Assembly (NCBI GenBank): GCA_002050165.1
Contig: MWSW01000013.1
Coordinates: 1 to 64,000, forward strand
Length of the DNA: 64,000 bases
From: Candidatus Tepidiaquacellales bacterium OLB4/UTCHB1
Lineage (GTDB): Bacteria > Bacteroidota > Ignavibacteria > Tepidaquicellales > Tepidaquicellaceae
Direction: 5' to 3'
Shown: positions 34,055-43,359 of the stretch, one piece after another
Numbering within the stretch: the first letter of the stretch is position 1
How the letters are laid out: each line of letters opens with the position of its first letter
Notes under the pieces: generated by a model
Told to the model about the DNA's origin: nothing
What the model saw: the letters and a program-made list of their open reading frames with translations, nothing else
Database searches by the model: none
Made by a program: the position numbers and the translations under genes

Positions 34055-34999
34055 TCAACCCTGTGATTCTTTTTCCAACTTTATTGATTTTGGAAAAAGA
34101 ATATTGTTTTCGAGATGGATGTGCTGATGCAGATCTTTCTCGAACTCTTCGAGCTTGTTGTATAAATAAGTGTATGATGCACAAGCGTCTTCCGGTGGAA
34201 CAAAGTTTCCGCTCAGTTCGCGGATTTTCTTCATGTTATCGCCCGTTGAGGTGTGTTCAGCTTCCATCATCCTGATTGGGTTTTCAATTGAACCGAACGC
34301 TGCGGGCGGTGGAGCTTGGTTATCGCGCTTTGCTGTAACCATCTCTTTTATGTATGGAAATAAAATTTGTTCTTCTTTTGGCATATGGCTCAGTAATTCA
34401 TTTTCGACGCCTTTAAATAAATTTGCAATTTCAACAACTTCCGGATGAGCGACACCGTGAACGCTTGCAACTTTTGCGCTGATTTCATTCAGTATCGGTA
34501 ATGTATCGTTAACATACCTGTGATGAGTGTTTACAATATAGTCAGCAAGAAAATCGAGTTCCCAATTATTGAAATCCTGTGACGCAGGTGCTTCCGTATT
34601 CTCCAGTTCCGACATTGCTGATTCAACTTCCATTGCGCTTATTCCCTGCTCCTGACACGCCTCTGCCAGAGTTTTATTTCCACCGCAGCAAAAATCCAGA
34701 CCGAACTTTCTGAAGACTTCTGCTTTCCTTATATCCGAAGCTGCAAGTTCACCAACTGTTGCCGGTCTCTCACCTTCCCCAAGTTTTGATAATTTAACTT
34801 CCCAAACTTCGGGACCTTCTTGTAGATATTCCCAGCTAAAGGTTTGTCCCCGCTCGCCCAGTAATTGATAATAAAGCGGCTTAGGATCGTGATCGTTATG
34901 TATTATAAATGCTTCACCGCCTGAAAGCGCGTCAAATTTATCGAAGATTGTAGGATGCTTTAACCTCGGTTCAATCTTCGTTACATCTAATGTTTCCAT
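34055..34999 (-). CDS. Iron-sulfur cluster repair di-iron protein (RIC/ScdA/YtfE) with N-terminal DUF2249
   Basis: Repairs Fe-S clusters damaged by nitric oxide or peroxide. Domains in order: DUF2249 at about 1-74, ScdA_N/DUF542 at about 80-130 with the CC pair in FGLDFCCGG, and a hemerythrin-like di-iron domain at about 145-305 with several His ligands (NTHHRYV, LLSHMPKEEQILFP, MEAEHTSTG, HQHIHLENNILFP). The DUF2249 fusion makes it about 90 residues longer than E. coli YtfE. It is the first gene of a six-gene leftward operon. Its promoter carries the 33-bp block shared with the gene at 35391. Confidence 0.93.
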   Translation of the reverse strand: METLDVTKIEPRLKHPTIFDKFDALSGGEAFIIHNDHDPKPLYYQLLGERGQTFSWEYLQEGPEVWEVKLSKLGEGERPATVGELAASDIRKAEVFRKFGLDFCCGGNKTLAEACQEQGISAMEVESAMSELENTEAPASQDFNNWELDFLADYIVNTHHRYVNDTLPILNEISAKVASVHGVAHPEVVEIANLFKGVENELLSHMPKEEQILFPYIKEMVTAKRDNQAPPPAAFGSIENPIRMMEAEHTSTGDNMKKIRELSGNFVPPEDACASYTYLYNKLEEFEKDLHQHIHLENNILFPKSIKLEKESQG

Positions 35000-35390: not shown

Positions 35391-35615
35391 TTATCCCAAT
35401 TTTGAAAGTTTGACTTCCCAGACATCCGGACCTTCCTTAAGATATTCCCAACTGAAGGTTTGTCCACGTTCACCCAGCAATTGGTAATAAAGCGGTTTCG
35501 GGTCGTGGTCATTGTGAATCACAAATGCTTCACCACCCGCGAGTGCATCAAATTTTTCAAAGATTGTAGAATGTTTTAAACGGGGTTCGATTTTTGTAAC
35601 GTCTAATGTTTCCAT
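35391..35615 (-). CDS. Stand-alone DUF2249 protein, paralogue of the RIC N-terminal domain
   Basis: A 74-residue protein that matches residues 1-74 of the RIC protein at 68 of 74 positions and stops exactly where the DUF2249 domain ends. Codon by codon, I count 34 synonymous and only 6 amino-acid-changing codon differences. That is strong purifying selection, so it is a maintained gene and not a decaying fragment. It has its own promoter with the shared operator. It may act as a free partner or competitor of the RIC domain. DUF2249 has no firmly known activity. Confidence 0.88.
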   Translation of the reverse strand: METLDVTKIEPRLKHSTIFEKFDALAGGEAFVIHNDHDPKPLYYQLLGERGQTFSWEYLKEGPDVWEVKLSKLG

Positions 35616-37543: not shown

Positions 37544-39811
37544 TTATAAATCTTTTCTTCTCCTGTATATCGAAATGAAAAATCCGATGACGAGAATTGC
37601 AGTACCCGCCCAAAGAATATTAATGAACGGTTTGATTGAAGCATTGATTACGAGCGATTCCTCGGGGATATGCATTGGTGTTTCATCGGTATTAACAATT
37701 GCAATAGACGCAGTTGGAGCCTCTCCGTTTCCGGTATTGGAAACGTTCATTTTTGCGAAGTAGAAATTGAGGTTAGGTTTATCAGACATCTTTGCAACGA
37801 AATAACTTGGTACCCCGTTTTTATATTCAATCTTAGGTTCTATTACCTCTGAAAATTTATTATCGCTAACTTTTAATTTTGCGCCGACAGTAAAGTTACC
37901 GGAGCGTACTTCTTCACCGCCGGGTAAAATTCCACCGAAGTTGAAATCTATAAACTCTACGTTCAATGCACCTATATCCTTTGATTTCCCTTTCGGGATT
38001 TCATGAATTTGGTCTTTCGTGAAAGTTTCCGGTTCAACAAGCCCCATGGGCGAAAGGTAAAGATCACGCGCAAAGAAATTTGCAATATCCGGGTTTTTCA
38101 TTACGCCTTCGGAAAAGCTACTGAAATACATTACCGGTTTCAGCAGCAATTCTTTACCATCTTGTTGTACGCGAATATTGAAATGATATTTTGAATCTGT
38201 TTGATTATTAGGATCTTCAAATTCTGTTGCACCTAAATAAGTAAGCCTGTAACCGAAAGCTTCAACAGGTTTATTAAGTTCTAGTGTAAGGTTTACATCC
38301 TGACTGTATCTGGAGGAAGCAATAATTCCCAGAAAGAATAATGAAAGTCCGATATGTGCAACGTAAGCGCCAATTCCGGATTTATTCTTTTTGAAAATTG
38401 TAATTGCAATTTCCGCATTCACAAAAAAAGCAAAAATCGCTGCAAAGGCAAATAAAGCAAAGATAAAATCCTGAACTCCGACAATCACAAGCGCAAAGGT
38501 GATAACACAGGTAATGATTAACGGAAAGAGAAGGCTTTTGAAAAAGGTTTTCTCGTCATTCGTTTTCCACTTTAGCAAAAGGCTCATTCCGTTTATAAAC
38601 GAGATGAGTATAGCAATCGGAAGGTTCATCTTATTATAAAAATCCTGTTCAATTGATCCGGAAGCGATGATCGGCCAACTTGTACCTGCAAAGACTACCA
38701 ATGCGGAAGCACAGAGTGTAACAGCACCAACGAAGAGCGCGGATTCACGGGTCAGAATATTTTTTGATCCTGAATCGAAAGTTTTAAGTTCCTTAGCCCT
38801 GTAGATTACCGCACCTATACCGATTGCAAGGAATGTCAGCATAAAAACAACAAGAGAGATATATACTTCTTTTCCCGGATCTACGAATGAATGAACTGAT
38901 GAATCACCAAGTACGCCGCTTCTGGTCAGGAAGGTAGAATACAAAACAAGCAGGTACGAGAGAATACATAAAATCAAATTTGTTTTCTTATATCCACCGG
39001 TTCTTTTTTGGGCGATCATTGTATGAATAGCAGCAACAATAATTATCCACGGAATCAGCGATGAGTTTTCAACCGGATCCCATGCCCAGTAACCGCCCCA
39101 CCCGAGAACTCCATACGCCCAGTAACCACCAAGCATTATTCCGAGCACCAGTACTCCACCTGCGAATAATAACCATGGCAATGAATAGCTAATCCACTCG
39201 TCGTATTTGTTTTTAATCAGAGTTCCGATTGCAAAACAAAACGGAACTGCCATAGCCGAAAATCCAACAAATAAAGTCGGTGGATGAATTGACATCCAGA
39301 AATTCTGAAGAAGCGGGTTCAGTCCTCTGCCGTCGGCAGGTATGAATCCAGGAGCTACATCGCCTGCGTATGTATCCCAAACGTAGTTGAACGGTGATTT
39401 TAAAATTAAAATAAAAGTGAGGAAGCCAAGCACAAGGCTATAAACAGACATTACTTCTGGTTCAAGGCGGTCACCTTTTGATACATATCTCAAAAGGAAT
39501 ATGCCGATTATTGCAGTCATTAAAGTCCAGAGCATGAAGCTGCCTTCCTGTCCGGCGTAGAATGTTGATATCAGCAATGCCAGTCCAAGTTCTCTGTTGC
39601 TTTGTTGCCAGACATATGAATACTGGAACTGGTGAGTTAAAATCAGATACATCAGTAAAGCGGAGGTGGCAATAACAAATGTTGCGGTTAGGAGATAAAA
39701 GACTCTTGCTGGTTTCAGATATTTTTCTTTTCCGGTATGAACAAGAAAGAATGATACTACACCCAGAATCGAAAATGCAAATGATAAATAGATTAGAATT
39801 TTGCCTACCAT
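37544..39811 (-). CDS. ccmF: Cytochrome c maturation heme lyase subunit CcmF
   Basis: CcmF attaches heme from holo-CcmE to apocytochrome c in the periplasm. The 755-residue protein has about 15 membrane helices. The tryptophan-rich WWD motif WGGYWAWDPVENSSLIPW binds heme, and histidines flank it (NFWMSIHPPTLFVGF). The large periplasmic C-terminal part is present before a final anchor helix. Length is a little above the E. coli 647. It is last in the ccm gene string: ccmC, ccmD, ccmE, ccmF. Confidence 0.95.
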   Translation of the reverse strand: MVGKILIYLSFAFSILGVVSFFLVHTGKEKYLKPARVFYLLTATFVIATSALLMYLILTHQFQYSYVWQQSNRELGLALLISTFYAGQEGSFMLWTLMTAIIGIFLLRYVSKGDRLEPEVMSVYSLVLGFLTFILILKSPFNYVWDTYAGDVAPGFIPADGRGLNPLLQNFWMSIHPPTLFVGFSAMAVPFCFAIGTLIKNKYDEWISYSLPWLLFAGGVLVLGIMLGGYWAYGVLGWGGYWAWDPVENSSLIPWIIIVAAIHTMIAQKRTGGYKKTNLILCILSYLLVLYSTFLTRSGVLGDSSVHSFVDPGKEVYISLVVFMLTFLAIGIGAVIYRAKELKTFDSGSKNILTRESALFVGAVTLCASALVVFAGTSWPIIASGSIEQDFYNKMNLPIAILISFINGMSLLLKWKTNDEKTFFKSLLFPLIITCVITFALVIVGVQDFIFALFAFAAIFAFFVNAEIAITIFKKNKSGIGAYVAHIGLSLFFLGIIASSRYSQDVNLTLELNKPVEAFGYRLTYLGATEFEDPNNQTDSKYHFNIRVQQDGKELLLKPVMYFSSFSEGVMKNPDIANFFARDLYLSPMGLVEPETFTKDQIHEIPKGKSKDIGALNVEFIDFNFGGILPGGEEVRSGNFTVGAKLKVSDNKFSEVIEPKIEYKNGVPSYFVAKMSDKPNLNFYFAKMNVSNTGNGEAPTASIAIVNTDETPMHIPEESLVINASIKPFINILWAGTAILVIGFFISIYRRRKDL

Positions 39812-39814
39812 TTT

Positions 39815-40204
39815 TTAGTAACCAGAATTTTTAATTTCTTCTCCGGTTGCTTCATATTTTGAGGGGCACTTGGTAAGCACTTCCGATGCCATAAAGGTTC
39901 CGTCCTTCACTTTTCCTTTAACAACGATAGCGTCTGCAACTTCAAAGTTATTAGGTTTACCGCCGTCTAAAATTACCTTCATTTCGTTATTGTAGTCATC
40001 TTTCATCCAAAAGGTAAAGGTATTGGTACCGGAATCGAAATTTGACTCTTTATCTTTTACCCATTGACCTTTTACTTCAACCTTTTTGTGAATATCCCGC
40101 GCGTCAGCAAAATTTACATATTCAATTTTACTATCCATAAACGAAAAAAATCCGATAGCGAGGAATACTATAATTATTATAGCGCCAATAAGAGATTTAT
40201 TCAT
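39815..40204 (-). CDS. ccmE: Heme chaperone CcmE, CxxxY type
   Basis: CcmE carries heme covalently from CcmC to CcmF. The ATG at 40204 gives a standard N-terminal anchor (SLIGAIIIIVFLAIGFFSF) and a periplasmic OB fold. An ATG-less extension of the frame to 40279 is less likely because ccmD overlaps it. The family's heme-binding His in HxxxY is replaced by Cys: C113-P-S-K-Y117 in EVLTKCPSKYEA. CcmE proteins with CxxxY are known from some Deltaproteobacteria and archaea. The protein is 129 residues. It sits 3 bp upstream of ccmF. Confidence 0.92.
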   Translation of the reverse strand: MNKSLIGAIIIIVFLAIGFFSFMDSKIEYVNFADARDIHKKVEVKGQWVKDKESNFDSGTNTFTFWMKDDYNNEMKVILDGGKPNNFEVADAIVVKGKVKDGTFMASEVLTKCPSKYEATGEEIKNSGY

Positions 40205-40355
40205 TTTTAATAACAGTTTTTGAATTTTCAAGTTTTGATATTTTTCTATCCAGGATAAAAAGATATACAAACAATCCAACCCAGATTATAAAAGTAATAA
40301 AGAGAACGACGTACAGTTCATTAATTTCCAAAAACTCATAAAGGGATTCCTTCAT
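40197..40355 (-). CDS. ccmD: CcmD-like small membrane protein
   Basis: A 52-residue frame from ATG at 40355 to TAA at 40197. It has one membrane helix (LYVVLFITFIIWVGLFVYLF) followed by a basic, charged tail (ILDRKISKLENSK). This matches CcmD, which stabilises the CcmABC-CcmE complex and helps release holo-CcmE. It begins 4 bp after the ccmC stop and overlaps the ccmE start by 8 bp, exactly the usual ccmC-ccmD-ccmE order. It is short and easily missed. Confidence 0.85.
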   Translation of the reverse strand: MKESLYEFLEINELYVVLFITFIIWVGLFVYLFILDRKISKLENSKTVIKNE

Positions 40356-40359
40356 GTTT

Positions 40360-41010
40360 TTATTTTTCTTTTAATTTTAATTTCTCTAACCTCAGTTTTA
40401 AGTCAAACATCCAGAAATAGAGCAAGGTAAAGCTCAGAAGAGATACGATAAAAATTACAAACATAACTGAATCCATTTTAAGTTTCCCTTCGGTATTAAC
40501 AATCGGATCGGGATGAAGGGTTTCAACGATTCTCGGTACAACGAAAACGAAGAATGGCACAGTAACAAATGCAATAATTGAATAAACTGATGATAACCTT
40601 GCTTTTTTCCTTTCGTCATTAATTGCCGACCTGAGCGAGAAATACGCACCATATATTAACAACAAAATGAAAATAGAAGTTTGTCTCGGATCCCAGTTCC
40701 AGAAAGCACCCCAGCTAAATTTTGCCCATAATGCGCCGGTAAGGGTTGCAAGCAGGCAAAAAAGGAAACCGAGACTATTTGCAGAAAAGGATTTTAAATC
40801 AGTAACCGGATCACCGGAACGTAGATATTTTATCGAATATAACATTGACATGAAAAATGCAACGACCGAAACCCATGCAGTTGGTACATGAAAATAAAGT
40901 ATACGTGCTTTTTCGCCAAGAGCAGGTATGAAAGGTATGGGAACAGAAAACCCAGCTACCAGCACAGAACTTATCAGAACGAAAACCAATATTTGGAAAG
41001 CAAGCCTCAT
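40360..41010 (-). CDS. ccmC: Heme exporter protein CcmC
   Basis: CcmC loads heme onto CcmE at the periplasmic face. Six membrane helices and the WWD-type motif WGAFWNWDPRQTSIFILLL near 115 are present, with the flanking heme-ligand histidines (RILYFHVPTAWVS and VETLHPDP). Length, 216, is normal. Its start overlaps the stop of the upstream lipoprotein by 4 bp. Confidence 0.94.
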   Translation of the reverse strand: MRLAFQILVFVLISSVLVAGFSVPIPFIPALGEKARILYFHVPTAWVSVVAFFMSMLYSIKYLRSGDPVTDLKSFSANSLGFLFCLLATLTGALWAKFSWGAFWNWDPRQTSIFILLLIYGAYFSLRSAINDERKKARLSSVYSIIAFVTVPFFVFVVPRIVETLHPDPIVNTEGKLKMDSVMFVIFIVSLLSFTLLYFWMFDLKLRLEKLKLKEK

Positions 41011-41568: not shown

Positions 41569-42234
41569 TCAATCGTTCCAAACAAAACCGAACAACATAA
41601 ACGAAGCAGTTGTAACTACCACGGCATAGGAAATAAGTATTTGAACTTCTGGGATGAGTTCCTGAAAAGTAGCGCCGTTACAAGCGAGGTTGGTAGCAAA
41701 TATTATTGATACCAGTAGTGGGATGAGAACAGGAAAAGCAAGCACAGGATAGAGCGATGACCTGGAATCTGCTTTAGATATAATCGCTGAAATTATGGTT
41801 GACGATGCAACTAATCCAAAATTGCCCAATAACACGACAATCCAGAAACCGTAATGATTCTCAATTCTAAGATCGTTCACAGCAATAAACAATACGACAA
41901 TAAAAACGTTAACGACAAATGATAAAACGAAATTGTAAAAAAGTTTACCGAGAAAAACCGGGTGCGGTAACGTGGATAATTTCAAAGAAAGCGAGGTCTC
42001 CTTCTCTTCTTCCTTTACAAAAGTCCGGGTAATTCCTGCAGCATTGGAGAAAAAAACACTTACCCATAACAACCCATTTATAATTTCATTTTCTGTTTTT
42101 TCTTCACCGATTGCAAATCTAATAATTGAAACTGTAACCAGAATGAACATAACGAGAGAATTAGCTGCATAGCGTGTTCTTAGCTCGCATTTGATTTCAT
42201 TTCGGAATATTAGCAAAGCACTTTTAAACATCAT
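41569..42234 (-). CDS. ccmB: Heme exporter permease CcmB
   Basis: The membrane subunit of the CcmAB ABC transporter, which uses ATP to release holo-CcmE. Six hydrophobic helices and the N-terminal signature LIFRNEIKCELRTRY are typical. Length, 221, is normal. Its start overlaps the ccmA stop by 4 bp, as usual for ccmAB. Confidence 0.9.
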   Translation of the reverse strand: MMFKSALLIFRNEIKCELRTRYAANSLVMFILVTVSIIRFAIGEEKTENEIINGLLWVSVFFSNAAGITRTFVKEEEKETSLSLKLSTLPHPVFLGKLFYNFVLSFVVNVFIVVLFIAVNDLRIENHYGFWIVVLLGNFGLVASSTIISAIISKADSRSSLYPVLAFPVLIPLLVSIIFATNLACNGATFQELIPEVQILISYAVVVTTASFMLFGFVWND

Positions 42235-42854
42235 TTGAAATCCCCTATGTTAATTGTTTGAACACAGTGTCTGAGGTCGGATTTTAAATTGGAAGCAATT
42301 ATTAATATTCCTTTTGAAAGTTGTTCCCCGATAACAGATGACACGACTTCATAACCTTCTTCGTCAAGGTTAGTAGTAGGTTCATCCATAATCAGAAAGA
42401 GCGGATTAACGGATAAAGCAAATGCAAGTCTCAGCCTCTGTTTCATTCCGGAAGAATAACTTTTAAAAGGTTTTTCCGCTGAATTTTCAAGACCGACTTT
42501 TCTCATAAGAGCCTGCAGATCAGACCGTTCCTTCGTCCGGAGCTTATGAAAATAGCTGATATTTTCCAGCCCGCTGAGTTCATCATAAAGATTTACATAC
42601 GGTGCGAAAAGTCCAATCATATTTTTTTTGTCTGACTCGTTGAGGGTTTTTCCTTTCAATGTGAAAGTTACATTTCCGTTCAGGGGTCGTATTAATCCTG
42701 TAATGATTTTCAGGAGTGTTGATTTACCTGATCCGTTCGGTCCGGTAATCGCGAGAGGTGAATTTTTATCGACGGAGAAACTGACATTTTTAAATACAAC
42801 TCCGTTGTTAAAAGAGTGCGAAAGATTTTCTACTTTTATAGTAACTTCATCCAT
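42231..42854 (-). CDS. ccmA: Cytochrome c maturation ABC transporter ATPase CcmA
   Basis: The ATP-binding subunit partnered with CcmB. Walker A GPNGSGKST, ABC signature YSSGMKQRLRLA, Walker B LFLIMDEPTTNLDE. The frame is open to a TTG at 42881 inside the thioesterase end, but the ATG at 42854 leaves the conserved VKVENLSHSF-like beginning intact and starts 10 bp after the upstream stop, so I prefer it. Confidence 0.93.
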   Translation of the reverse strand: MDEVTIKVENLSHSFNNGVVFKNVSFSVDKNSPLAITGPNGSGKSTLLKIITGLIRPLNGNVTFTLKGKTLNESDKKNMIGLFAPYVNLYDELSGLENISYFHKLRTKERSDLQALMRKVGLENSAEKPFKSYSSGMKQRLRLAFALSVNPLFLIMDEPTTNLDEEGYEVVSSVIGEQLSKGILIIASNLKSDLRHCVQTINIGDFK

Positions 42855-42864
42855 TTCAAGGATG

Positions 42865-43359
42865 TCAAGGCTTGGAGACAATTCCGTGCTTACCGGATAA
42901 ACGTTGTTCCCGCCGCTTCAATGCTTGTTCGTATCGCCTTATTTCCTCTTCTGTTTCAGGTTTTATTTGCGGAACTTTTACCTTTTGTCCGGTCTCCATG
43001 TCTATGCTGACAAATGTTAAATAAGCGCTGTTTGAATGTTTAACCACTCCTGTCCGGAAATCTTCAACTTCAACCCGAACGCCAACTTCCATTGAAGTAT
43101 TGAAGGCGCGATTTACAGAGGCTTTGAGTTTTACAATCTCTCCAAGTTTGATCGGGTAATGGAACACGAGGTTGTCAACCTGAGCAGTGACCGCAACAGT
43201 CATACAATGTTTTGATGCGGCAAGAGCGCAGGCAATATCTATCCAAAACATTAACCTCCCGCCGGCTAGATTTCCTAAAATATTTGTGTCGTTAGGCATG
43301 ACATATTCAGTCATTTCAATCTGCGAATCTTTAACGGTTTTTATAATTTTATCTGTCAT
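42865..43359 (-). CDS. Acyl-CoA thioesterase (hotdog fold)
   Basis: A 164-residue single-hotdog thioesterase. The signature NDTNILGNLAGGRLMFWIDI (15 residues in) contains the active-site Asn/Asp region of the YciA/BFIT acyl-CoA thioesterase group, and the second block VEVGVRVEVEDF is typical. It hydrolyses acyl-CoA to free fatty acid and CoA in the cytoplasm. Start is 3 bp after the bamD stop and the ccmA start follows 10 bp after its own stop. Confidence 0.88.
   Translation of the reverse strand: MTDKIIKTVKDSQIEMTEYVMPNDTNILGNLAGGRLMFWIDIACALAASKHCMTVAVTAQVDNLVFHYPIKLGEIVKLKASVNRAFNTSMEVGVRVEVEDFRTGVVKHSNSAYLTFVSIDMETGQKVKVPQIKPETEEEIRRYEQALKRREQRLSGKHGIVSKP

Follow-up and report, generated by a model that had tools for sequence, protein, structure and literature searches.

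A predicted System I* cytochrome c maturation cluster with a Cys-type CcmE and a ccmF-linked lipoprotein gene in an Ignavibacteria genome

The 64,000-nucleotide stretch of contig MWSW01000013.1 analyzed here (the window), from Candidatus Tepidiaquacellales bacterium OLB4/UTCHB1, carries on its minus strand a gene cluster in the order ccmA, ccmB, a lipoprotein gene, ccmC, ccmD, ccmE, and ccmF (Table 1). Several of these neighbors share a few bases of overlap, and the 3' end of the lipoprotein gene overlaps the start of ccmC by 4 bases. Profile matches identified CcmA, CcmB, CcmC, and CcmF, the proteins that a System I* pathway calls for, and ccmF is the only CcmF_C match in the genome. The first-pass annotation of this DNA had described the ccmA, B, C, D, F set as complete; genes for all of these letters are present, while CcmH and CcmI were not found and an unlisted lipoprotein gene lies inside the cluster. 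Elsewhere in the window, a 74-aa open reading frame (35391-35615) almost repeats the N terminus of a 314-aa protein (34055-34999), both starting with METLDVTKIEPRLKH, and looks like a truncated duplicate of it.

Table 1. Cytochrome c maturation genes of the window (first seven rows, window coordinates) and related proteins at other loci (locus coordinates)
Feature	Position	Strand	Basis or remark
ccmA, ATPase subunit	42231..42881	(-)	PF00005 E 4e-28; TIGR01189 E 4e-34, under its cut-off
ccmB, ABC transporter membrane subunit	41569..42234	(-)	PF03379 E 2e-16
lipoprotein, 137 aa	41007..41420	(-)	lipobox Cys17; AlphaFold2 helices; ccmF synteny; candidate CcmF partner
ccmC, WWD-domain heme handling protein	40360..41010	(-)	PF01578 E 1.5e-29; TIGR01191 E 1e-36, under cut-off
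ccmD, short one-helix protein	40197..40355	(-)	PF20077 E 3e-7; TIGR04391 above cut-off
ccmE (Cys type)	39815..40204	(-)	PF03100 E 3e-14; alignment with relatives; PDB profile match 2KCT
ccmF, WWD-domain heme lyase	37544..39811	(-)	PF01578 E 1e-26; PF16327 E 1e-28
second CcmE-like protein	L073:8632-9009	(-)	ends before CxxxY
second CcmE-like protein	L056:3617-3988	(-)	ends before CxxxY
second CcmE-like protein	L088:7771-8127	(-)	ends before CxxxY
second CcmE-like protein	L063:8413-8763	(+)	ends before CxxxY
second CcmE-like protein	L084:7665-8012	(-)	ends before CxxxY
14-/6-CXXCH proteins	L038:12880-15051
14-/6-CXXCH proteins	L193
14-/6-CXXCH proteins	L195
14-/6-CXXCH proteins	L196

The ccmE frame encodes 129 aa counted from an ATG; a TTG start would lengthen it to 154 aa, for which the relatives give no support. 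The protein lies well over the curated PF03100 cut-off (53.5 bits against 24.6, E 3e-14) and has the predicted layout of the heme chaperone, with a single N-terminal membrane anchor and an OB fold. Near the C-terminal end it presents the motif LTKCPSKYE, in which Cys113 and Tyr117 form the CxxxY pattern. In a profile built from 19 relatives, the Cys113 column falls on the cysteine of Desulfovibrio vulgaris CcmE (2KCT, the best PDB match, E 3e-7) and on the histidine of the E. coli-type CcmE structures 1SR3 and 8CE8. The reading made at first pass, that the heme-binding histidine is replaced by Cys113 in CPSKY, is thus borne out both by the motif and by the alignment with a known CxxxY CcmE, and the histidine of canonical System I is missing from this position. 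Its further statement that CxxxY proteins use a different heme bond was adopted as probable, by analogy with characterized members.

No PF03918 match, and hence no CcmH by this profile, was found in the window genome, which is 99% complete; canonical System I includes CcmH, and System I* often lacks it. The control genomes gave matches in the CcmH, CcmI, and ResB searches. In the wider samples, matches to PF03918 were weak and partial. Of the 149 class genomes, 10 gave one, 5 of them over the cut-off, and 139 gave none; of the 296 phylum genomes, 7 gave one, 2 of them over the cut-off. Five of these loci (L092, L093, L094, L097, and L254) were inspected by eye, and all contain a Cys-rich CcmH-like stretch, preceded in four of the five by a zinc-ribbon-like start. 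In proteins with such an N terminus at L093:1252-2016, L254:1216-2004, and L097:1156-2070, the CcmH-like stretch occurs twice.

For CcmI, none of the 23 order genomes, the window genome included, reached the TIGR03142 cut-off; two matches fell under it, and neither of their contigs bears an intact copy of the lipoprotein gene. CcmH and CcmI, which the first-pass annotation proposed to look for elsewhere in the genome, were therefore found with neither PF03918 nor TIGR03142. ResB (PF05140) has no match in the window genome. Five of the 23 order members gave PF05140 matches. These fall inside CcmF C termini, except in G100, where the matching frame is 237 aa long and is matched by CcmF_C as well; a ResB plainly distinct from CcmF was seen in none of the 23. 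System II as the actual pathway was rejected, no ResB/CcsB match being found in the genome.

The genome also encodes one DsbD_TM protein, which would be the source of reductant in the proposed pathway. A 193-aa protein with five CXXCH motifs heads a putative cytochrome gene run on contig C6 (23-42 kb), which we take, from naming by eye, to comprise alternative complex III-like genes followed by cytochrome oxidase genes. Together with the proteins behind the five PF13442 matches in the genome, this pentaheme-motif protein is a likely cytochrome substrate of the pathway.

The lipoprotein encoded between ccmB and ccmC has no Pfam family match of its own. Among 14 aligned members, the lipobox cysteine (Cys17) is invariant (14/14), and nine match TPR_11 at E values up to 1, the best being 3e-5. 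The AlphaFold2 model (mean pLDDT 81, and >90 over most of residues 45 to 127) consists of a low-confidence linker followed by four confident helices that span residues 45 to 127. Structure comparison describes these as TPR-like, with Z scores no higher than 9.3, a middling level that common helical arrangements also reach. Neither NrfG nor CcmI is among the best 50 matches listed by Foldseek or VIA-align, which is uninformative. CcmI has a membrane part in its architecture. Like CcmI and NrfG, the TPR partners of heme lyases, the lipoprotein has a putative TPR-like domain and is linked by gene position to the heme lyase, but at 137 to 167 aa it is without the membrane part of CcmI, and these genomes yield nothing above the cut-off of the CcmI model.

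An intact lipoprotein gene was found in 21 of 23 sampled genomes of the family and order, in 24 copies. For 23 of these copies, the 5 kb downstream contain a CcmF_C match in the same orientation, and the 24th is followed by a ccmF that the contig end truncates. Proximity to ccmE holds for only 14 of the 24. At least four gene orders occur (lip-C-D-E-F, lip-E-F, lip-F, and lip-C-F); in genus g10, the lipoprotein gene stays with ccmF in all eight genomes and ccmE is elsewhere, accompanied by ccmC and ccmD in the three g10 genomes read. Among 80 named loci, 22 carry the lipoprotein gene and 21 of these have ccmF downstream, the remaining one being on a stretch without ccmF; their contigs are partly shared with the order sample. 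In many order genomes, the lipoprotein-ccmF pair has two multi-CXXCH proteins encoded beside it, one with 14 motifs (about 415 to 440 aa) and one with 6 (about 280 to 290 aa).

The lipoprotein gene is not universal. G138, a genome of the same family that consists of one contig, has ccmCDEF with the lipoprotein gene absent there, and the genome G081 retains it only as a broken remnant, so that the lipoprotein can evidently be dispensed with. No ccm gene lies near the homologues in families f3, f12, and f17 (11 neighborhoods, the protein being labeled in 8), and the same holds for homologues in other classes (10 neighborhoods, labeled in 9). In two families, a gene named SmpB-like by eye adjoins the homologue. 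At an E value of 1e-10, the lipoprotein was found in 19 genomes of the phylum sample, all of which have CcmE, a coincidence of little weight because CcmE is common and the families are clumped. In families without the lipoprotein, the other conserved genes beside ccm that were read looked unrelated by eye, for instance anti-sigma-like and aminotransferase-like genes.

The alternative that the lipoprotein is a chance member of the operon, unrelated to cytochrome maturation, with System I* needing only CcmABCDEF, keeps a probability a little under even. The dispensability seen in G138 and G081 and the differing neighborhoods of homologues elsewhere in the phylum, including those beside the SmpB-like gene, speak for it, as does the report that Methanosarcina works with CcmABCEF alone (PMC9084895, from the part of that paper available here). 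Chance retention is nevertheless hard to square with a link to ccmF that is kept through at least four gene orders and in the eight g10 genomes with ccmE elsewhere, among genomes that are related and thus not independent. On balance, gene order suggests, with about even probability, that this previously undescribed lipoprotein is a partner of CcmF. More tentatively, and at rather less than even probability, the order may fill the place of CcmH and CcmI with a CcmF partner of its own, a small, membrane-anchored TPR-like lipoprotein that would dock unfolded apocytochrome on CcmF.

Of the 149 class genomes, 146 have CcmE; in the phylum sample, the count is 192 of 296. For the analysis of conservation, 189 distinct CcmE sequences were aligned, drawn from 90 class loci in addition to that of the window (the 30 with the best scores and 60 selected by family, overlapping, from the 146 genomes with CcmE), 51 phylum loci (from the 192 phylum genomes and thus a part of all CcmE), and the 80 named loci, the top ones of which are metagenome-assembled genomes titled Ignavibacteria, Bacteroidetes, Chlorobiota, or Candidatus Kapaibacterium. 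The alignment took matches of >80 or >100 bits, which dropped second CcmE-like proteins without CxxxY. The motif column is reached by 188 of the 189 sequences, one being cut there, and is a cysteine in all of them (187 CPSKY and 1 CPSRY). Since 59 of the 188 came from a motif search and have the cysteine by construction, the count that carries weight is that of the 129 motif-independent sequences of the class and phylum samples, where it is again invariant (128 CPSKY and 1 CPSRY).

The Cys form is the only form in the class and phylum sequences read, and judging from these sequences a Cys-type CcmE appears normal across the whole lineage. The expectation that it would be unusual here did not hold, and neither did the suggestion that ccmA, B, C, D, and F alongside it make this CcmE informative on the evolution of the two chemistries, since no nearby His form is available for comparison. 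Recent acquisition of a deltaproteobacterial or archaeal Cys-type CcmE by a His-type lineage is improbable: ccm genes are described as often transferred between domains (PMC9084895, in the portion available), but no His-type CcmE was seen among the 129 motif-independent sequences, and identity to the window CcmE, 70% at best within its family, drops to about 40-55% elsewhere in the class, which fits descent within the lineage, as far as a class-internal comparison goes. A degenerate or mis-sequenced CcmE, or a pseudogene, with a histidine elsewhere binding heme, can practically be dismissed, because the codon of Cys113 is TGC and TGY lies two bases from CAY, so that a one-base error cannot turn His into Cys, because the cysteine is present in 129 of 129 sequences, and because no histidine column is conserved among the 189 (His39, the sole histidine of the window CcmE, is His in 36 of 189; the candidate columns that come next have His in 31 and 87 of them).

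Additional CcmE-like proteins occur in the class. In families f5, f7, f14, and f24, a second one is encoded just 3' of ccmE and stops before CxxxY (Table 1). The order genomes G105, G142, and G053 have two ccmE loci each (L039, L045, and L050), and the second ccmE of G142 adjoins a short ccmF-like fragment.

The Cys-type variant was named System I* in PMC3601427. In the part of that paper available here, most of the bacterial genomes have the motif CPSKY (25 of 36), the system occurs mainly in Deltaproteobacteria and also in Chloroflexi and Firmicutes, CcmH is present in about a third of System I* bacteria, and CcmI is mentioned in the tested system; the same part states that bioinformatics had found no compensating features in the Cys-type pathway. 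According to the available portion of PMC9084895, heme attachment in Methanosarcina depends on the cysteine of CXXXY, and Desulfovibrio desulfuricans, which likewise has CXXXY, requires its ccmD. The accessible text of PMC3884852 describes the heme on D. vulgaris CcmE as non-covalent, contrary to the covalent attachment reported for D. desulfuricans.

As far as these partial sources describe it, the System I* of D. desulfuricans (CcmABCDEF; PMC3601427 and PMC9084895) shares with the cluster a cysteine in place of the CcmE histidine, the presence of CcmD, and the lack of CcmH, whereas the cluster belongs to another lineage, was found without CcmI, and includes the gene for a TPR-like lipoprotein. 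The Ccm system of Methanosarcina acetivorans, on the same footing, likewise combines a CXXXY CcmE with the lack of CcmH and CcmI, but here CcmD is present and CcmF is one protein instead of two. With System I of E. coli and Rhodobacter (CcmABCDEFGH(I)), the cluster shares homologues of CcmA, B, C, D, E, and F in one operon and differs in the cysteine of CcmE and in missing CcmH and CcmI. Chemistry and gene set are of a known type and match System I* in its usual stripped form, and the first-pass remark that CxxxY proteins often come with altered Ccm sets agrees with both this literature and the genome. Among the open-licence papers listed by literature searches, none had a title or abstract start on the lipoprotein described here or on a Cys-type CcmE in Ignavibacteria.

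The genes very probably form a working System I* cytochrome c maturation cluster. In the predicted sequence of steps, for which work on Desulfovibrio and Methanosarcina is the model, CcmABCD would load heme onto CcmE, where Cys113 would hold it, probably by a thioether bond at a vinyl group, and Tyr117 would likely be the axial ligand. CcmF would then hand the heme to apocytochromes, for example, those of alternative complex III and the oxidase encoded elsewhere in the genome. A role for the lipoprotein alongside CcmF, such as holding the unfolded apocytochrome, is proposed in this analysis only and has roughly an even chance of being correct.

Cys-type CcmE was already known, and calling the Cys form rare is out of date, as it is the sole form in the samples studied here. 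The lipoprotein gene offers a concrete candidate for the question of how System I* CcmF works in the absence of CcmH, because it stays with ccmF through rearrangements and not with ccmE. A pairing of the lipoprotein with CcmF would, if true, give the Cys-type pathway a heme lyase complex whose composition is new.
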